DNA of 64,000 nt from Bryobacterales bacterium. GTDB lineage: Bacteria > Acidobacteriota > Terriglobia > Bryobacterales > UBA6623. The stretch is taken from the NCBI GenBank assembly GCA_026713545.1, contig JAPOOG010000115.1, forward strand, positions 45,951 through 109,950, given 5' to 3'. The position numbers were made by a program, and so were the translations under genes. A model generated the notes under the pieces. It saw only the letters and a program-made list of their open reading frames with translations. It did not search any database and was not told where the DNA came from. Positions 10,780 to 42,153 of the stretch are shown here, piece after piece; within the stretch, counting starts at the first letter, position 1; every line of letters starts with the position of its first letter.

Positions 10780-11997
10780 CTACCAGTCAACGACCGAGCC
10801 GTCATCCGGGTCGAACCGCGGCCGGTACTCTCTGGGCTCGCCCACCTGCGCCATCAGCTTTTCTTCGTCGATCGTGATCCCGAGGCCCGGATCAGTCAGC
10901 AGAGGCCGGTGGCCGTTGCGAACCGGAGGCATCGGCTTGGCGAGCAGATCCATGTACTCGTTGTCGCCGCGTTCCTGAATGAGGAAATTCGGAATGGATG
11001 CCGCCACCTGAAAACTCGCCGCCAGCGAACACGGCCCTTGCGGGTTGTGAGGCGCCAGAGGCGAGTAGTATGCCTCGGCCATACCCGCTATGATCTTCAG
11101 CTCCGTGATGCCGCCCGCGTAGCAGACATCCGGTTGAAGAAAGGTCGCCGCCCGCTTTTCAAGGATCTCCTTGAAACCCCATTTCGTGAAGATCCTCTCA
11201 CCGGTGGCGATCGGGATGTGCGTCTTGCGCGCCAGCTCCGCCATGATGTCGACGTTGAGAGCTTGGATGATCTCTTCGTAGAACCACGGGTTGCAGGGCT
11301 CGAGCGCCTTCATCAGAAGGAGCGCCGTCGGCGGCTGGACGGCGCCGTGGAAGTCCAGACCGATATCCACCTCGTCACCGTACTTGTCACGGAGAGCCTT
11401 GAAGCGTTCAACCACCTCGTCGACGAACTTCTGACCCTCGATGTACTTGATGGCCTGCCGTTCTTCGCCTCGCGGACCGGTCTTCATGGCAGTGACGCCG
11501 GTTTCTTCGCTGACGCGGCCGTACACTCGGACCCGGTCACGCGTCGGCCCGCCGAGAAGCTTGTAGACCGGGACACCGTAAACCTTCCCCTTGATATCCC
11601 ACAGCGCCTGATCGATCCCGCTCGTGATCGCTGTCTTGATCGGACCTCCGCGGTAGAACGCTCCACGGTGAATTGCCTGCCAGTGGTGAACGACACGGCA
11701 AGGGTCCTGCCCGATGAGATAGTCGCCCACTTCCAACGCTCCGGCGGCGCAGGCCTTGGCGTCGTCCTTGAGCATTTCCCCCCATCCGACAATTCCGGCG
11801 TCTGTCGAGATCTTCACGAAGACCCACGAGTTCTTCAAGACGAAGGCGTCAATCCTGGTGACCTTGATACTGTCGTTCGGGCCCACCGCAGCCGCATCGG
11901 TTCGCTCGGCGGTGAACAGGGCGTCGAGACCGACCAGCGCTCCTGCGCCCGCCAGACAGCGAAGCCAGGAACGACGGTTCATGCGAAAACGTGACAT
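10780..11997 (-). CDS. Mandelate racemase/enolase family protein with TAT-like signal (galactonate dehydratase-like)
   Basis: MSRFRMNRRSWLRCLAGAGALVG leader; IGLDFHGAV, EEIIQ, ATGERIF, QPDVCYAGGITELKII, APHNPQGP. Track ORF extends to 12039. Confidence 0.85.
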   Translation of the reverse strand: MSRFRMNRRSWLRCLAGAGALVGLDALFTAERTDAAAVGPNDSIKVTRIDAFVLKNSWVFVKISTDAGIVGWGEMLKDDAKACAAGALEVGDYLIGQDPCRVVHHWQAIHRGAFYRGGPIKTAITSGIDQALWDIKGKVYGVPVYKLLGGPTRDRVRVYGRVSEETGVTAMKTGPRGEERQAIKYIEGQKFVDEVVERFKALRDKYGDEVDIGLDFHGAVQPPTALLLMKALEPCNPWFYEEIIQALNVDIMAELARKTHIPIATGERIFTKWGFKEILEKRAATFLQPDVCYAGGITELKIIAGMAEAYYSPLAPHNPQGPCSLAASFQVAASIPNFLIQERGDNEYMDLLAKPMPPVRNGHRPLLTDPGLGITIDEEKLMAQVGEPREYRPRFDPDDGSVVDW

Positions 11998-12086
11998 CGG
12001 ACATACCCTCCTGAATGCGTTATCCCCCGCCGGGGTCATCCCAGCTTACGGCACTTCGGCCGGCCGCCACCACATCCCTGCCCTAT

Positions 12087-12370
12087 CAGCCCGTGGTAAA
12101 AGTCACGCAGGCGGCGTTACGCGCCCCTGGACCGATTGCGTACTGCCCAGCCGCTTCAGGAAGGCGGCGCCTCGCTCTGCGCGTTTTTTCTTCGAAGCCG
12201 AGCGGAAGCGGCGCGTAACTCTTTGGGCGACGGACATTTGCGGTCGTCGGCTTTGTCGTTCGCTTTTCCTTCGCGAGGAGGAGATCACCCGGATCGCCAT
12301 CCTCCTCACTCCGCGCCGAGCGACCACAGGAGCCCGCCGCGCCTTCCACGGGACCTTTACCACGGACTGC
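12087..12370. repeat. Dispersed repeat family A, copy A4
   Basis: CAGCCCGTGGTAAAAGTC / GACCTTTACCACGGACTG inverted ends; internal blocks shared with A1-A3. Confidence 0.85.
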
Positions 12371-12507
12371 TATGCTGCCAACCCGGCCCGAATGGGGGAG
12401 CCTGCGCCGACACCTAGTTTTTTTCTTCGCTGCCAAGGTTCACATTCGAGTCAAGTTGACGCGGCGATCCGTTGACCTGCTTGTCGGTCTGAGGACTTCC
12501 TCGCTAG

Positions 12508-13923
12508 CTATGAAATCAAAAGCTTCCGTACAGCGGTCGTCAGCAGCTCGTCGACCTTCGGGTCACACCAGGCGACGCTCACTTCGTAGCCGCCTTGGGG
12601 ATAGGATTCTTTCGTGGGGATGTACCAAGGGCCGTCATCACCATAAGCCGCGGTCGCGACAAACCGCTCGGGTCGCATCTCTTGCGCCCGCAACTGGTAT
12701 TCGACGAAACATTCCCCAGGCAGGTGCAGCATGGAAACGTCGTTGACTTGAAGGCCGCTGACGACGATGGGGTCCCCGCGGGCGAACCGGCGCAGGTAAG
12801 CCAGGGTGTACGAGGGACGATTGCGCTCTACGACGCTGCGGGACGGGTCGGCAATCCGCGCGGCAAGCTCACCGGCATCGAAACGGGGATGCGGTTCCGG
12901 CAGGAACGGCACCGTGCGCCAGTCGACCGACTCGATAGGCTCCGGCCGGAGGTTCGCTTCCGAGAGGGTGATCGCCTGGTACATGCGTTCGGTCAAGACG
13001 CGGCGCATGGGCTTCGAACCGTCGTTATACTTGCCTGCCCCGACATTGCCCCCACAGCCATTGAAATAGAGGTGCAGACATTCCGGCTCTTCGCGCTGCC
13101 GCTGCCGGCGCGCCAAGCCACAGAAGTCGGCGCTGACGCGGCCGTCGCCGTAGTAACTCATCGGATGGCAGGCATAGTAGTGGCATGCGGCAACCTTCTT
13201 GCCGTTGTCGTAGAACGCCACGGTCTTCAGCCAAGGATCGATCACTCCCTCCGGCAAGCGATGATGCTCAGGGTTGCGTGAACTGCTGCCCCGCTGCGAG
13301 CCGACCTTGCCGTCCGCACCCACAATCCGACGATTGGACGCGACCTTCCCGACACGGGCTTGCCCGTGGGCGACGGCGGTGACCTGCCGCGGTTGCGTCA
13401 AGGCCTTGCTGACCGCGTCCCGGGTCCTCTCCAGGCAGCTTTGGAAGAATGCGAGGTCGAGCGTCGGCGGCAGCTCCGGGTACTGTGCGACGATCTGCTG
13501 AGCGTCCAGGCATGCAAAAGGAGCATTGTGCGGGTGCACGCTGTGAAGAGCGACCCGCTCGGGCGTCGTACCCGCCGCCTCGGCCAGCGCTTGACGCCAA
13601 GCGATGTGAGCGGCGTTCAGAATACCGGTCCAATCGACGACGCAGATCACGATGGGCTTGTCGAGACCCAACAACACGAACCCTATCGCCTCCAGAGGAT
13701 CGTCCACTCCGACAACGGGCTGAATCCATCCGCCACACAGGGAATGGCCAAGCGGCGGCGTGACGTCGAATCGGAATGGACATAGGCGCAGTGTTTTCAT
13801 AGCCGTGTCCGAGCAACGAGAGGCCACCAGGCCCGTTCCGGCCAACGTTGTCTGGAGGAATGTTCGCCGATCGACGGCGGTCGATGCAATTTCTTTTACG
13901 TAGTTGTCTCTGACTGGCTCCAT
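12508..13923 (-). CDS. Neutral/alkaline ceramidase-like (N-terminal domain) protein with TAT-like signal
   Basis: VDRRTFLQTTLAGTGLVAS leader; RFDVTPPLG...HSVHPHNAP...ACHYYACHPMSYYGDGRVSADF...LYFNGCGGNVG pattern. Confidence 0.6.
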   Translation of the reverse strand: MEPVRDNYVKEIASTAVDRRTFLQTTLAGTGLVASRCSDTAMKTLRLCPFRFDVTPPLGHSLCGGWIQPVVGVDDPLEAIGFVLLGLDKPIVICVVDWTGILNAAHIAWRQALAEAAGTTPERVALHSVHPHNAPFACLDAQQIVAQYPELPPTLDLAFFQSCLERTRDAVSKALTQPRQVTAVAHGQARVGKVASNRRIVGADGKVGSQRGSSSRNPEHHRLPEGVIDPWLKTVAFYDNGKKVAACHYYACHPMSYYGDGRVSADFCGLARRQRQREEPECLHLYFNGCGGNVGAGKYNDGSKPMRRVLTERMYQAITLSEANLRPEPIESVDWRTVPFLPEPHPRFDAGELAARIADPSRSVVERNRPSYTLAYLRRFARGDPIVVSGLQVNDVSMLHLPGECFVEYQLRAQEMRPERFVATAAYGDDGPWYIPTKESYPQGGYEVSVAWCDPKVDELLTTAVRKLLIS

Positions 13924-34966: not shown

Positions 34967-36043
34967 ATGAAGATCGAGACCTACAGCAGCCAAGTTGTGA
35001 GCTTTCCGCGCGCAGTCGGCGCTCTGGACGAGGCGCCCGTGCAGGTCTCGGTCGATTTCGTCACTCTACGGCTCAAGACGGATGAGGGGGCCGAGGGCAT
35101 CGGGTACGCAGGCTTTGCGGCTCCTGTAATGACGAAAGCGCTCAAGGAAGCGGTGGACGCGCTGGCGGAGCAAGTCATCGGCGATGACCCAATGCGCACG
35201 GAGGCAATCGCCGAGAAGCTACTCGAGATCGGCGGCCGCGGCGCCGCCGCCGGCCTGGTGACACGAGCGGTGTCGGCGATCGACGTCGCTCTGTGGGATC
35301 TCAAAGGCAAGATTCTGGGGCAACCGGTCTGGAAGCTGCTCGGCGGCTTCCGCAACCGAGTTCCCGCTTATTCCAGCGGCCACCTCTGGCGGACCTACGA
35401 TGCCGACGCGCTGGCCCGCAAAGGAGCGGAACTCGTCGAGCAGGGCTTCCGTGCGATGAAATTCCGCATGGGCGCCGAGCCTTCGAACAGCGCCGAGATG
35501 GAACGCATGCATGCTCTGTGCGACGCGGTCGGCGACGAGATCGACATCATGGTCGACATCAACCAGGGCTGGGATGTCAACCGCTCGATCACCATGGGGC
35601 GCGAGATGGAGATCTGCGGCCTTTATTGGTTGGAGGATCCGGTCAACTACCAGGATTTCGACGGCTTGGCCCGCATCGCCGATGCCCTCGACACTCCAAT
35701 CGCCGCGGGCGAGTATTTGTGGGGCGTCGAACCGTTCCGGTCGTTCCTCGAGCGTCACTCGGTCGACATCGTGATGGTCGACATCATGCGCGTCGGCGGG
35801 TTGACGCAGTGGATGAAGGTGGCCCACATGGCGCAGGCCTGGAATCTGCCGATCGTGAGCCACTTGGCACCGGACATCCTCGCGCCGGCGGTGGCCGCCG
35901 TCCCTAACGGCCTGTTCGTCGAGCATATGCCCTGGTCACTGCCCCTGTTCCGCGAAGAGTTACGGTTGGAAAACGGCGAGATCGTACTCGACGACGCGCC
36001 GGGGTTGGGACTGGAGTTCGATGAGCGTTGGCTGACTTCTTGA
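34967..36043 (+). CDS. Mandelate racemase/muconate lactonizing enzyme family protein (no signal)
   Basis: MKFRMGAEP, MVDINQGWD, WLEDPVNYQD, AAGEYLWG, SHLAPD. Confidence 0.9.
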   Translation: MKIETYSSQVVSFPRAVGALDEAPVQVSVDFVTLRLKTDEGAEGIGYAGFAAPVMTKALKEAVDALAEQVIGDDPMRTEAIAEKLLEIGGRGAAAGLVTRAVSAIDVALWDLKGKILGQPVWKLLGGFRNRVPAYSSGHLWRTYDADALARKGAELVEQGFRAMKFRMGAEPSNSAEMERMHALCDAVGDEIDIMVDINQGWDVNRSITMGREMEICGLYWLEDPVNYQDFDGLARIADALDTPIAAGEYLWGVEPFRSFLERHSVDIVMVDIMRVGGLTQWMKVAHMAQAWNLPIVSHLAPDILAPAVAAVPNGLFVEHMPWSLPLFREELRLENGEIVLDDAPGLGLEFDERWLTS

Positions 36044-36076: not shown

Positions 36077-37324
36077 ATGAAACGCAGACAGCTTTTCAAG
36101 ACACTCGGCTTGGGCGCCGCGGCAGCACTGTTGCCGCCGGATCTGAGGTCTTCTCCACCGGAGACCGATCTAAAAATTACTTCGGTTCGCGTCGTGAGGG
36201 TGAGGCCGAAGCGTCCGGTGCCGCGATATGAGCCCGCGCCGGGTTCTTGGTCGACAGGCCGGGTGGAGGTGGCGAACCCTGTCTCGATCTATCCCGAGTA
36301 CAAGCCGATGCGGAGCCTGTTCATGCCTGACCCGGGCGGCGTGTCAAGCTTCTGGGTCGAAATCGGAACGAACAAGGGTCTCACCGGCCTTGGCCGGGGA
36401 GGCCCCGGCGGCGGACCGATCATCGAGGGCCATCTGACCAAACTTCTACTCGGTGAGAACGCACTCAATATCGAGCGCATCTGGGACCTGCTCTGGCGGG
36501 CCACAATGTACTACGGCCGCAAGGGTATCGTGCCGAATGCGCTCAGCGGCATTGACCTGGCGCTCTGGGATATCGCCGGCAAGGCCTGGGGGCTTCCCGT
36601 CTATCGCCTGCTCGGCGGCGAAACGAAGCCACGTATCCCTTCCTACTGCACCGGCAACGACATCGAGCAGCACGTCGAGTTCGGCTACGCGAAACTGAAG
36701 CTCGCGCTGCCGCACGGCCCGGCCGACGGACGCGAAGGCATTCGCAAGAACGTGGCGCTCGTCAAACGCGCTCGCAAAGCCGTGGGGAAAGACGGCATTG
36801 TGGCCATGGATTGCTGGATGGCTCTGACCGAACGGTATACGATCGAACTGTGCGAGGCCTTCGAACCCTACCGCGTGTACTGGATGGAAGAGTGCCTCCC
36901 ACCTGACGACTATGAGGGCTTCGGGCGGCTTCGGGAACAAATCAAGTCAACCCGTATCGTGACCGGCGAACACGTCTACACCCGCTACGGGTTCCGGCAG
37001 TTGCTTCGAACGAACGGCGCGGAGATCTGGCAGCCGGACATCCACTGGTGCGGAGGCTTGACGGAGATCCGGCGCATCGGCGCTTTGGCAGCGGCCTATG
37101 ATATTCCGGTGATTCCGCACGGCGGCGGTCAGCGCGACGCGATCCACTATGTGATGGCGACGCCGAACAGTCCCTGGGCAGAAATGTTCATGCCAGCGCC
37201 CGGCGGCCCCGATGAGGTCTACGAACGCTACGAACAAGACAACAACCTGACCCGCGGACCTGAGGGCATCTACACGCGCCCGTCGGACGAGCCGGGGTTC
37301 GGATGGGATGTCGAAGTGGTTTGA
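36077..37324 (+). CDS. Mandelate racemase/enolase family protein with TAT-like signal
   Basis: MKRRQLFKTLGLGAAAALLPP leader; AKLKLALPHG, VAMDCWMAL, WMEECLPPDD, VTGEHVYT, QPDIHWCGGLTEIRRI, IPHGGG. Confidence 0.9.
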   Translation: MKRRQLFKTLGLGAAAALLPPDLRSSPPETDLKITSVRVVRVRPKRPVPRYEPAPGSWSTGRVEVANPVSIYPEYKPMRSLFMPDPGGVSSFWVEIGTNKGLTGLGRGGPGGGPIIEGHLTKLLLGENALNIERIWDLLWRATMYYGRKGIVPNALSGIDLALWDIAGKAWGLPVYRLLGGETKPRIPSYCTGNDIEQHVEFGYAKLKLALPHGPADGREGIRKNVALVKRARKAVGKDGIVAMDCWMALTERYTIELCEAFEPYRVYWMEECLPPDDYEGFGRLREQIKSTRIVTGEHVYTRYGFRQLLRTNGAEIWQPDIHWCGGLTEIRRIGALAAAYDIPVIPHGGGQRDAIHYVMATPNSPWAEMFMPAPGGPDEVYERYEQDNNLTRGPEGIYTRPSDEPGFGWDVEVV

Positions 37325-37340: not shown

Positions 37341-37476
37341 AGCCTGCATTTCTCACCACCCGACGGCCGCCGAAGCACGCGAAAAAAGGCCGTGTTGTGC
37401 GCGTCAAGCGGCTCGCGCCTCGTACTGACGGCCCTCTCACGCACATCGCCTCGCCACGTGGTGAGACATGCAGGCT
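37341..37476. repeat. Dispersed repeat family C, minimal copy
   Basis: TAGCCTGCATTTCTCACCACCCGACGGCC...CACGTGGTGAGACATGCAGGCTA; lacks the internal heptad/GTGAACCGTAAAGG modules. Confidence 0.88.
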
Positions 37477-37936
37477 AATCCCGTACTTCGGCGAAGACGC
37501 TTAACTGCACTGCGGCGTTCAGCGGCATGTCGCGGATGCCGAGCGCGGTGCGCGTATGCTTGCCTCGTTCCTCGAAGACCTCGACGAACAGGTCGGATGC
37601 ACCGTTGAGAACCTGAGGATGCTCGGAGAAACCTTCGTCGCAGAACACGTTGCCTTCGAGCCGAACCAGGTTTGCGATCTTCTCGAGGTCTCCTGCGGCG
37701 TCTTTGAGTTGGGCGATGGCATTGATGGCGGCGAGGCGCGCCGCCGCATAGCCTTGTTCCGTCAAGAGATCGCGGCCCAACCGGCCCGCGTACTTCATCA
37801 CCGAACCTTCCCACGGCAACTGGCCGGATGTCATCACGAGCGAGCCGGTGCGAATCCACGGCACGTACTTGCCGACCGCCTGCGGCGGTGAAGGCAAGAC
37901 GATGCCAAGTCGTTTCAAGTTCTCTTCAGCGGTCAT
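37475..37936 (-). CDS. RidA/YjgF family protein
   Basis: MTAEENLKRLGIVLPSPPQAVGKYVPWIRTGSLVMTSGQLPWEG...NLVRLEGNVFCDEGF; start trimmed from track ORF. Confidence 0.9.
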   Translation of the reverse strand: MTAEENLKRLGIVLPSPPQAVGKYVPWIRTGSLVMTSGQLPWEGSVMKYAGRLGRDLLTEQGYAAARLAAINAIAQLKDAAGDLEKIANLVRLEGNVFCDEGFSEHPQVLNGASDLFVEVFEERGKHTRTALGIRDMPLNAAVQLSVFAEVRD

Positions 37937-38102
37937 TGCAGAGTCGCTCCCAGGAATTTCGTCACTGAGATCGTACCCTAGTTCTGCCGGGAACGCACCT
38001 GTATCGGAGAGCTCCGTAACTGGTTCCGATATTGTTGTTGATCCGGCAAACACCCTTCAGCGGGCTGATCAGAGACATGTTACGCCCGCTGTCGGTCGCT
38101 CT

Positions 38103-39434
38103 TCAGAACGACACGTCCCACTGGAGCCGCACCTGGGTGTCCAGCAGGTCGTCCGCTCCGTGCCGGGCGAGAGAATAGCGCGACGTGTCAAACGTCAGCT
38201 TGTTCGCGTGGCCGTAGAAGAACCAGTTGACGACGAATGCCAACTCCTTCTGCAGATCGTCCGGTCTTACACGGTTCGGGTCCACCAGAGCGTAGCGGGC
38301 ACCAAGCTCGAGCTGCTTGGGGATGCGCGGGAACAAATAGTAAAAAAAGTATCCCGCCTGGACGTAGCTGCCCCGCATGAAGGTCGTTTGAACATTCACG
38401 TTGTCCTGGATGCGTTTCCAGTGCAGCTCGTGTTGCAGAGAGAAGCCGCGGTACTTCAGCGCCGTCTCCTCCATGAACTGGCGAAGCGAATACTGCCCCA
38501 GCAGGCCGGTTTCGAAACCGTCAAGCCAGCCACCGCCAGAGGACGAAAAACGTGTGTAGCGGCTTCGATTGCGAGCCGCCCCAAACGACAGGGCAGCCGC
38601 CGGTTTCTCATGATATTTCAGGTCGCTTTGGGAATATCCGACATCGCGACCCAGAAAGTTCCACTGGTAGCGCGCCACTACCATCGGCGAGCCATCGCCG
38701 TGATCGAGTTCGGGCTTGCCCGGCACCGTGCGAAACCCTCGCCCATTGCCGGTGAATACGCCGACATAATAGCGCGAATCACCCAGCGTCCCGTTCATGA
38801 CTCGGCCCAATACCGCCGCACCCTTCTGCCGATCCACAGTGAAAGCCCTGTTCACGATCGACCGGTCGGCGAACTGCTGCTTGCCCGACGAGTCCGATCG
38901 CTCGCGGCTGTAATCAACCTTCCACTGTCCGAAGCGAAACTGCAGCCACTCCCATTTCTCGACGGTCACAAACGCGTTCAGATTGCGCGTGTCAACCAGG
39001 TCATACTCGTAGTTGTATTTGATCCAACGAGTGAAGGCGTGACCACTGATCTTGAAGCGCGCCCTTCTGAAACGGAGATCGTTCTCATCGGCGCCTGTGA
39101 AATGACTCTCCTTCCGCGGTGCACTCTTAAACGGCGAAGAGAAGCGCTTCTGCGAACGGATGTTGACCTTCCCGCTAAACCGCCCCTCGCTTTTCTCACC
39201 GATCTGCAGTCCCTTGCGGGTGTACCGGAAGAAGCTCCTTTTCTTCTTTGACTCCTTGAACTCTCGTTCCTGCAAGCTCTCGCTGATGGGGTTCACCGCT
39301 ATCGGCCGAGTCGCCGACGCCGAGCTGCCGGAAGCAGAGACGCCAGAGGCGAGAACCTCGCCGTTCTCGTCCGCTGCGAACGCCGTTCGCAAGACGATCA
39401 AAAAGACGGGGACTGCGAAAAACCGCCGAAACAT
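38103..39434 (-). CDS. Phosphate-selective porin O/P-like outer membrane porin
   Basis: Signal MFRRFFAVPVFLIVLRTAFA; FRRARFKISGHAFTRWIKYNYEYDLVDTRNLNAFVTVEKWEWLQFRFGQWKVDYSRER; aromatic beta-strand C-terminus ending in F. Confidence 0.8.
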   Translation of the reverse strand: MFRRFFAVPVFLIVLRTAFAADENGEVLASGVSASGSSASATRPIAVNPISESLQEREFKESKKKRSFFRYTRKGLQIGEKSEGRFSGKVNIRSQKRFSSPFKSAPRKESHFTGADENDLRFRRARFKISGHAFTRWIKYNYEYDLVDTRNLNAFVTVEKWEWLQFRFGQWKVDYSRERSDSSGKQQFADRSIVNRAFTVDRQKGAAVLGRVMNGTLGDSRYYVGVFTGNGRGFRTVPGKPELDHGDGSPMVVARYQWNFLGRDVGYSQSDLKYHEKPAAALSFGAARNRSRYTRFSSSGGGWLDGFETGLLGQYSLRQFMEETALKYRGFSLQHELHWKRIQDNVNVQTTFMRGSYVQAGYFFYYLFPRIPKQLELGARYALVDPNRVRPDDLQKELAFVVNWFFYGHANKLTFDTSRYSLARHGADDLLDTQVRLQWDVSF

Positions 39435-39494
39435 GATTGACTTCAAATGGTTCAGAAAACCGATGTGGAAGGTCAAGCATAGCGACTCGGGCGC

Positions 39495-39579
39495 AGTATA
39501 AAGTCATATAAGAGTTACAGTTCAGTGAATGTCTTGTTAATCTATTGTTAATATTACGTTTCAGTAAATTACTGGTTAA
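39495..39579 (-). promoter_or_regulatory. PHO-box-like 11-bp-periodic operator plus -10 upstream of porin gene
   Basis: Minus strand TTAACCA-GTAA-TTTACTG-AAAC-GTAATAT and TTAACAA-TAGA-TTAACAA-GACA-TTCACTG-AACT-GTAACTC, then 11 bp, then TATACT. Confidence 0.5.
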
Positions 39580-39934
39580 TATTGTCGCGATCTGCCCCGC
39601 TGCGCTAAACCAGACTGGCCTTCAGGAGGCAACGGCCTTCTGACCTACGAGAAAGACGCAGACAACCGCTGCCGAAGGCCACGCAACGCGCCAGCGGCTG
39701 TCAAGGAGCGGGTCCCGGGCCATTCCCCGCGGGCCTCAAAATGAGATCCACCGCTGTGGGGTTACCGGCCAAAGACCGGAATGAGTGTCTACTTGAGTGA
39801 ATCATCATCTCGACTCGGCAAACCGCAAACTCTGAACCATGAAACCGCGTATCGAACTGGTTCCCTGTTCCTTACACGGGTAGACTATGCGGTTGTGGAT
39901 GCCATTGATCTTATAGTTCTGCTGGGAGGGTTTC

Positions 39935-40780
39935 ATGAAACTTGCCTTGGTGCAGATGGAAAGCCGCATAGGCGAGATCGAGTCCAACGTGGCCACAGCC
40001 TGTGCCTACATCGATCAGGGGGCCCAGGGCGGCGCGGACTGCATCGTCCTGCCGGAGTTTTTCAGCACCGGCTACTTTCCGGTTTATCGCGACTACGACT
40101 ACTACGACCTCGCGTCGAACGAGTCCGGCCACGCGATCAGCTCCGTCAAAGCCAAAGCGCGCGAGCATGGCGTTCACATCATCGCCACATACTACGAGCA
40201 GGACGGCAGCGATCTCTACTACAACACCAGCATGCTCATCGACTCCGGCGGAGAGGTAGTCGGCAAATACCGAAAAGTGCAGATTCCCGCCTTTCGCGGG
40301 ATCGAGAAACTGTTCTTCCGTCCCGGATCGAAATTTCCCGTCTTCCCAATGAACGGTTGGAGCGCCGGCATCATGCTCTGCTACGACACCTTCTTCCCCG
40401 AGTCGGCCCGCTGTCTGGCGCTGGGCGGCGCCGAACTGATTCTGATTCCGTTCGGAGCCTCCGACACAGAGAAGTCCGTCTGGCGCGAGATGATGGTCAC
40501 CCGAGCCTTCGAGAACTGCGCGTACGTGGTGGCCTGCAACAGCGTCGGCGCCGTGCCGATGACTGACGGGGACACCTTCGTCATGGGCGGCCGGAGCGTG
40601 ATCGTCGACCCGCTCGGCCAAGTCGTGAGTGAGGCCGGACGCACCGAGAGCGAAATCGTCTATGGCGAGATCGACCGCAGCCAAGTCGAAGCTGCCCGAA
40701 AACGCTACTTCATGTTCCGCGACCGGCGCCCCGAAGCGTATGGCATCATCAGCACCCAGACCGAAGACATCGCACGCTGA
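39935..40780 (+). CDS. Carbon-nitrogen (nitrilase superfamily) hydrolase
   Basis: IVLPEFFSTGYFP (Glu), GKYRKVQIPAFRG (Lys), GIMLCYDTFFPESAR (Cys). Confidence 0.93.
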   Translation: MKLALVQMESRIGEIESNVATACAYIDQGAQGGADCIVLPEFFSTGYFPVYRDYDYYDLASNESGHAISSVKAKAREHGVHIIATYYEQDGSDLYYNTSMLIDSGGEVVGKYRKVQIPAFRGIEKLFFRPGSKFPVFPMNGWSAGIMLCYDTFFPESARCLALGGAELILIPFGASDTEKSVWREMMVTRAFENCAYVVACNSVGAVPMTDGDTFVMGGRSVIVDPLGQVVSEAGRTESEIVYGEIDRSQVEAARKRYFMFRDRRPEAYGIISTQTEDIAR

Positions 40781-40914: not shown

Positions 40915-42153
40915 CTAAATGAAAGCGATCGAGCCGTCGGCCCGGTAACCAGTACCGCGCTTCCAGGGTCTCGGCGGCATGCTGGGGAAGGCCTCTTCGT
41001 TCAACTCGACGCCCCAGCCGGGTTTGGTGGGGATGTCGACATAGCCGTCCTTTACCATGATCGGCTCTTTAAGAACGTCTTTTGACGCTCCGGAAACGGG
41101 CGCGCGGTATTCCAGAATCAGGAAGTTCGGCGTGGACGCGGCGAAATGGACGTTCACGGCAGTGGCGAGCGGGCTCATGGGGTTGTGCGGCGCGACCATG
41201 ATGTATTGGGCCTCGGCCATGGCAGCGATCTTTTTCATCTCCATGATGCCGCCGCAGACACAGATGTCGGGCTGCACAATGTCGAGCGCCTGGATGTTGA
41301 TCAAATCGCGGAATTCGTACTTGGTGTAGTTGCACTCGCCGCTTGCCAACGGGATGTTGACATGGTCGGCTAGCTTCTTCATCGCATCGAAGTTCTCGGG
41401 GCGGATGGGTTCTTCGAGCCAGAACGGGTAGAAGGGCTCGATTTCCTTCGCGACGCGAATCGCTCTCTGGACCTCGAAATAGCGGGCGTGGATATCAACT
41501 CCAATATCCACATCCGGGCCCACGGCCTCACGCACGGCGCCGACCCTTTGACCGGCAATGCGCGTGACCATGTTGTACGGCATCTGATTATCGCCGCGAT
41601 TGTGAGGTGACATCTTCACGGCGGTGTAGCCGTGCTGCTCGATCAAACGCTCGGCGTTTTCAGCGGCCTCCTGCGGACTGCTGCCGCCGATACTCTGATA
41701 AACACGGACTTTCTGGCGGACACGCCCGCCGAGAAGAGCCCAGCAGGGCAGCCCCGCCGCCTTGGCCGTGATGTCCCAGAGCGCGTGCTCGATGCCGCTG
41801 AGGGCCGAGTTGACGACAGAGCCGCCAGGGAAGCGCGTGGTGTTGTACATCAGGTCCCACAGGTATTGGATGTTTCGAGGGTCCTGGCCAACCAACCAGA
41901 GCTTGTAATCTTCGATGACTTTGACAGTTGCTTCATCAGGGCCGCAGGAATAAGCCTCGCCGATGCCTTCGATTCCCTGGTCGGTGAGCACCTTGACGTA
42001 GATCCAGTTTCGGCCGCCGTTCCAGACCATGAACGTCTTGATGTCGGTGATCTTGATCGCAGGCTTGTCGCCCATCGGAGCGGGCGCCTGGAAAGGCGCC
42101 GCCGCCAGTGGAGCCGCTACGGCGGCATTGCCGAGAAACTGTCTTCGCCTCAT
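40915..42153 (-). CDS. Mandelate racemase/enolase family protein with TAT-like signal (galactonate dehydratase-like)
   Basis: MRRRQFLGNAAVAAPLAAAP leader; VGVDIHARY, WLEEPIRPENF, ASGECNYTKYEFR, QPDICVCGGIMEMKKI, APHNPMSP. Confidence 0.9.
   Translation of the reverse strand: MRRRQFLGNAAVAAPLAAAPFQAPAPMGDKPAIKITDIKTFMVWNGGRNWIYVKVLTDQGIEGIGEAYSCGPDEATVKVIEDYKLWLVGQDPRNIQYLWDLMYNTTRFPGGSVVNSALSGIEHALWDITAKAAGLPCWALLGGRVRQKVRVYQSIGGSSPQEAAENAERLIEQHGYTAVKMSPHNRGDNQMPYNMVTRIAGQRVGAVREAVGPDVDIGVDIHARYFEVQRAIRVAKEIEPFYPFWLEEPIRPENFDAMKKLADHVNIPLASGECNYTKYEFRDLINIQALDIVQPDICVCGGIMEMKKIAAMAEAQYIMVAPHNPMSPLATAVNVHFAASTPNFLILEYRAPVSGASKDVLKEPIMVKDGYVDIPTKPGWGVELNEEAFPSMPPRPWKRGTGYRADGSIAFI

Follow-up and report, generated by a model that had tools for sequence, protein, structure and literature searches.

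The window analysed here is a stretch of Bryobacterales DNA of 64,000 nucleotides (64 kb), in which a porin gene on the minus strand is preceded by an array of short direct repeats. The features concerned are listed below with their positions in the window.

38103–39434, minus strand: outer-membrane porin gene of the Porin_O_P family (OprO/OprP-like; PF07396), the predicted target of the array.
37475–38053, minus strand: YjgF/RidA-family gene (PF14588), 49 bp after the porin gene on the same strand.
39935–40780, plus strand: carbon-nitrogen hydrolase gene (PF00795), divergent from the porin gene.
39514–39551, minus strand: downstream block of four KTMAY words (TTAAC, TTAAC, TTCAC, GTAAC) at 11-bp spacing; above all shuffles and conserved before porin orthologues.
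39553–39579, minus strand: upstream block of three words (TTAAC, TTTAC, GTAAT), offset by 6 bp from the phase of the downstream block; the sister species has four perfect words here.
39495–39500, minus strand: TATACT, 13 nt from the last word, probably not the −10 element.
39476–39481, minus strand: TATGCT, candidate −10 element, 32 nt from the last word.

The downstream gene had been called O/P-porin-like in an earlier sequence-only reading, and it is indeed a true member of the Porin_O_P family, scoring 45.6 bits against PF07396 (gathering cut-off, 20.9). It is the sole member of that family in its own genome and is 91% identical to the porin of Bryobacterales bacterium isolate RHO3_bin_12. 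Orthologues were found in 13 of the 61 genomes searched, the own genome counted, and are common among genomes of the same family but seldom found in others. No sequence match was found between the porin and any chain of the solved OprP/OprO structures; Porin_O_P is a broad family, and phosphate selectivity of the channel is predicted from its genomic context, namely the PhoU and Na/Pi cotransporter genes beside it in relatives. In one genus (G007 and G009–G013; L016–L021) the porin is apparently fused to an N-terminal domain in open frames of 593–756 aa, and the array lies several hundred bp before these frames; as read from the open frame alone, this domain looks like the carboxypeptidase-regulatory-like start of TonB receptors. 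The YjgF/RidA-family gene, which is not a known Pho gene, is possibly co-transcribed with the porin, and there is no evidence that the divergent hydrolase gene is a target of the array. Three genes of the mandelate racemase/enolase superfamily (34967–36043, 36077–37324 and 40915–42153) cluster around the porin locus.

On the minus strand, the upstream block reads TTAACCA, TTTACTG and GTAATAT, starting at 39579, 39568 and 39557, and the downstream block reads TTAACAA, TTAACAA, TTCACTG and GTAACTC, starting at 39551, 39540, 39529 and 39518; the successive spacings are 11, 11, 6, 11, 11 and 11 bp. Every letter and coordinate given for the array in the earlier reading was confirmed, including TATACT at 39500–39495. 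The description of 7-mers recurring every 11 bp holds within each block but fails at the 6-bp step between them: the array is not a single run but consists of two internally in-phase blocks, of three and four words, that are offset from each other by about half a helical turn. The number of half-sites had been thought unusual, and seven does exceed the four words usual in this lineage, although the seven are split between the two separate blocks.

The array was scored by counting matches to a KTMAY word every 11 bp over four words (maximum, 20). The block at 39551–39514 scores 20/20, which is unique within the window and was reached by 0/300 dinucleotide shuffles of the window and 0/20,000 local shuffles, figures that are optimistic when taken alone because KTMAY was defined after the site had been viewed. 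Genome-wide statements on the own genome (5.6-Mb assembly, 99% complete) are based on pattern and family searches, and the pattern search returned this block as the sole perfect four-word match. When up to two mismatches were allowed, 13 matches at about 10 distinct places were obtained, compared with 1 for the reversed control pattern. Most of the weak two-mismatch places lie inside open reading frames (L034, L036, L038, L039, L040 and L042), and they were not counted as extra members of the regulon.

Arrays of KTMAY words at 11-bp spacing were observed upstream of porin orthologues in eleven related genomes. Four-word arrays that are perfect or carry one mismatch were retrieved by the pattern search in G001, G002, G005, G007, G009, G011, G012 and G013, and those of G004, G008 and G055 are readable by eye. 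The sister species G001, whose porin is 92% identical to that of the window, has two perfect four-word blocks, the upstream one lying at G001:C20:49261–49298 with 0 mismatches. Within the upstream block the two species differ in length by exactly 11 bp, or one unit (window 39570–39590 against L013), suggesting that units of the array are gained or lost whole and that the phase is kept. In G002 and G004 the porin gene has both a PhoU-domain and a Na/Pi cotransporter gene as neighbours, and in G005 a PhoU-domain gene; as judged from gene order, these neighbours connect the porin with phosphate without recourse to the array.

The same array occurs at other Pho genes. On contig C102 of the own genome, an array (L027:13728–13765) lies directly before a PhoB-like regulator gene (L027:13802–14515), and the order is a first PhoB-like regulator (10908–11600), a PnpS/PhoR-like kinase (11597–13372), the array and this second PhoB-like regulator. 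The pair of array and second regulator was found in eleven relatives (G002, G007, G008, G009, G010, G012, G014, G019, G022, G024 and G025), and in G019 the order is pstS-pstC-pstA-pstB-phoU-phoR-array-regulator. In G002, which belongs to the genus of the window, a pstSCAB-phoU operon has an array about 160 bp before the start of pstS. The array also recurs before a TonB receptor gene, which stands by itself or is accompanied by small genes (G002, G006, G007, G008, G009 and G012), and the own genome has a three-word array before a TonB receptor gene on contig C2. The neighbourhood of the latter (L026:124–14204) contains genes for a DUF4956 protein, an EF-hand/PPDK-type protein and, as read by eye, a SulP-like transporter, together with one for an exported protein of 594 aa without a Pfam match. 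Within the own genome, no array was seen by eye in the 425 bp preceding the first PhoB-like gene, and none scoring at least 18/20 was found before the Na/Pi cotransporter gene.

A matrix trained on the porin, regulator and TonB-receptor sites only, with the pstS sites excluded, was applied to 23 pstS upstream regions of the order. It exceeded the 95th percentile of the shuffles in 17 of the 23 (p = 4e-11), and there was no enrichment on the opposite strand (p = 0.41). Across 23 genomes, 52 four-word matches with at most one mismatch were counted, whereas the control pattern gave 4; since many of the relatives are closely related, the array sites are not all independent. Absence of the motif from other Pho genes had been named as a refutation of the earlier reading; the motif is present at both pstS and PhoB-like regulator genes, and the reading was not refuted.

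A four-word array was also seen immediately upstream of, and pointing away from, a gene for a predicted secreted protein in two genera (G000:C102:154159–154196, which is L027:8160–8197, and G006:C1:3773104, which is L134:3105–3142). The predicted secreted proteins beside these two arrays share the motif GRALARVAAHEVRH, and the orientation of the arrays is ambiguous because TTAA words read both ways.

For both C102 regulators the best NCBIfam match is the PhoB model (TIGR02154), at 252 bits for the first and 233 bits for the second; both scores are below the NCBIfam PhoB equivalog cut-off of 296, and the regulators also score well against the MtrA, CreB and BaeR models. The closest PDB entries to the DNA-binding domain of the first regulator are those of E. 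coli PhoB (3T72, 1QQI and 1GXP), and it keeps the VDVHxRRLR and TVRG of that protein; the second regulator has VDVCVLRLR and SVRG instead. Elsewhere in the own genome (L028:7500–7749; G000:C88), GTAAA-N6-GTAAA repeats lie between an OmpR-family regulator/kinase pair and a gene for a small exported protein, in an arrangement that resembles the CpxR type.

The lineage consensus from 32 sites is TTMAC-N6-TTAAC-N6-KTMAC-N6-KTAAC. Of the 31 sites that have flanks, 26 show a TANNNT element beginning 10 or 11 nt beyond the last word, against a background of 0.3% per position, and the sites had been picked without regard to the −10. In E. coli, the PhoB box lies 10 bp upstream of TAN3T/A (PMC1906773), and the lineage spacing agrees with that rule. 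The porin promoter of the window has no TANNNT-type element at 10–11 nt. TATACT had been read as a −10 matched to the array, but its distance of 13 nt departs from the lineage spacing and it is not conserved in congeners, making that assignment doubtful. On the other hand, all three species of the genus have TANNNT exactly 32 nt from the last word (TATGCT, TATGAT and TATTCT), and in the G005 porin promoter it lies at 22 nt, one turn beyond the usual distance. These positions suggest that the porin −10 is TATGCT (39481–39476) rather than TATACT, and that the porin array may act about two helical turns further upstream than is usual (32 nt instead of 10–11). The possibility that the upstream block serves a further promoter was also considered and set aside, as no TANNNT could be read 10–11 nt from the last word of that block.

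We consider it very probable that the array is a Pho box of the PhoB type, and phosphate control of the porin, as the sequence-only reading had proposed, is well supported by the arrays at pstS in the same genus, at the regulator gene following phoR and before porin orthologues, as well as by the PhoU and Na/Pi cotransporter genes beside the porin in relatives. In the full explanation, to which we assign a probability of roughly 0.87, the array is the operator and activator site that drives the porin under phosphate limitation. When phosphate is limiting, the PhoR/PnpS-like kinase of C102 would phosphorylate a PhoB-like response regulator, units of which would bind head-to-tail along the 11-bp repeats, one per word and on the same face of the helix. 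The bound regulator would then recruit sigma-70 RNA polymerase to a porin promoter that has no good −35 element, so that the porin, predicted to be phosphate-selective, would be produced during phosphate scarcity. This operator would also drive the second PhoB-like regulator, as feedback, the TonB receptor and, where it is still present, pstS. The computation shows the array and its conservation, its sharing among Pho genes, its fixed distance to a −10 in most promoters and a PhoB-like DNA-binding domain encoded in the genome; binding, activation rather than repression, low phosphate as the signal and the choice between the two PhoB-like proteins are the steps that we infer. Against the explanation stand the sub-cut-off scores of both PhoB-like proteins, the departure of the porin promoter of this genus from the lineage geometry, the missing PstS, PstC, PhoU and Pit of the own genome, the lack of a strong array at its Na/Pi cotransporter gene, and the breadth of the Porin_O_P family. 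A search of open-access literature turned up no definition of a Pho box for Acidobacteriota, although one may exist. The consensus offers a lineage-specific Pho box with a fixed promoter geometry for Bryobacterales, by which the Pho regulon of these uncultured bacteria becomes readable from DNA alone.

Unexpectedly, the usual signal input of such a regulon was largely missing. Profile searches of the own genome (99% complete) found no PstS, no PhoU, no PstC above the cut-off and no Pit/PHO4, and one Na/Pi cotransporter gene (PF02690; L121:3508–4653). These absences, with the cotransporter gene present, recur in the single-contig genome G008 and, apart from a sub-threshold PHO4 fragment, in the sister G001. 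The absences are based on profile searches of draft genomes; their recurrence in G001 and in the single contig of G008 indicates a trait of the lineage rather than a gap in one assembly. The own genome does not fit canonical Pst-PhoU-PhoR-PhoB signalling, for which PstSCAB and PhoU are needed, and the usual Pho input seems to have disappeared from a lineage that retains PhoBR and the Pho boxes. In Caulobacter, PhoB responds to Pst-PhoR and not to cytoplasmic phosphate (PMC11208175), and the survival of the array without Pst and PhoU raises the question of how a PhoR deprived of its customary partners perceives phosphate. We tentatively propose, at somewhat short of even odds, that in this family of Bryobacterales a Pho regulon of PhoBR, Pho boxes, phosphate porin and TonB receptor still works although PstSCAB, PhoU and Pit have been lost, with PhoR reading phosphate in another way and with a porin promoter whose array is two-block, phase-shifted and about two turns further upstream. 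The alternative route to PhoR would perhaps be the Na+/Pi cotransporter or the sensor domains of the kinase itself.

Members of the OmpR/PhoB family generally bind direct repeats of about 10–11 bp, and so the array could in principle serve another member of that family (CpxR, BaeR, WalR or MtrA-like) that answers to envelope stress or some other signal and has no role in phosphate. Envelope regulators commonly target porins, and the good scores of the C102 regulators against the MtrA, CreB and BaeR models would fit such an assignment. We regard it as quite improbable, since the array stands at pstS in the same genus, is enriched at the 23 pstS genes and in G019 precedes the regulator that follows pstSCAB-phoU-phoR, and since both regulators match the PhoB model best and E. 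coli PhoB is the top PDB hit for the DNA-binding domain. Chance, or low-complexity repeats in AT-rich intergenic DNA, is scarcely credible. In its favour are the AT-richness of the stretch and the post hoc definition of the words, but the local shuffles, the excess over control matches, the fixed −10 spacing and the enrichment at pstS all speak against it, and for the array as a class it is refuted by the conservation before porin orthologues and the use of the array by pst genes.

A further reading is that the second PhoB-like regulator has become a separate regulator with a signal of its own, for example in the outer-membrane uptake of another anion or nutrient, and that the porin and the TonB receptor obey it rather than the phosphate regulator. 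The array is in fact most constantly found at the second regulator, the TonB receptor and the porin, even in genomes without Pst, and the recognition helix VDVCVLRLR of the second regulator differs both from the VDVHVRRLR of the first and from E. coli PhoB. However, the second regulator lies beside phoR and in G019 ends the pst-phoU-phoR cluster, pstS carries the motif in G002 and elsewhere in the order, and in relatives the porin has PhoU and Na/Pi cotransporter genes as neighbours. We therefore judge a separate regulator to be unlikely and favour a PhoB-type Pho box under phosphate control.

Among the known systems, the Bacillus subtilis PhoP box consists of TTAACA repeats, and the array in the window carries TTAACA-type words at 11-bp spacing. 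The likeness to that box drawn in the sequence-only reading appears to be superficial, a resemblance of letters only; KTMAY covers both the GTCAT of E. coli and the TTAAC of cyanobacteria, and the best model for the regulator is PhoB, with a DNA-binding domain nearest that of E. coli PhoB. The Pseudomonas phosphate porins OprO and OprP are under PhoB, and the locus shares with them a target gene in PF07396 and, in relatives, a phosphate-linked porin neighbourhood; unlike them, the window porin has no detectable match to a solved OprP/OprO chain and its ion selectivity is a prediction only.

The cyanobacterial SphR Pho box, which consists of at least three CTTAACCT repeats with 3-bp linkers (PMC1906773), offers the nearest word (TTAAC) together with an 11-bp period and three or more tandem repeats, but it belongs to another phylum and another regulator, and its published description includes no two-block phase-shifted layout. 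The E. coli PhoB Pho box of the pstS and phoA promoters shares with the Bryobacterales array the 11-bp direct repeats, a word (GTCAT) that is a case of KTMAY, the regulator family, with PhoB as the nearest solved DNA-binding domain, and the distance from the last word to the −10, which is 10 bp before TAN3T/A in E. coli (PMC1906773) and 10–11 nt in most of the Bryobacterales sites. It differs in that the Bryobacterales words are mostly TTAAC, TTCAC or GTAAC and usually four in number, and in that the porin promoter of the window has two blocks and a −10 that appears to be displaced by about two turns.
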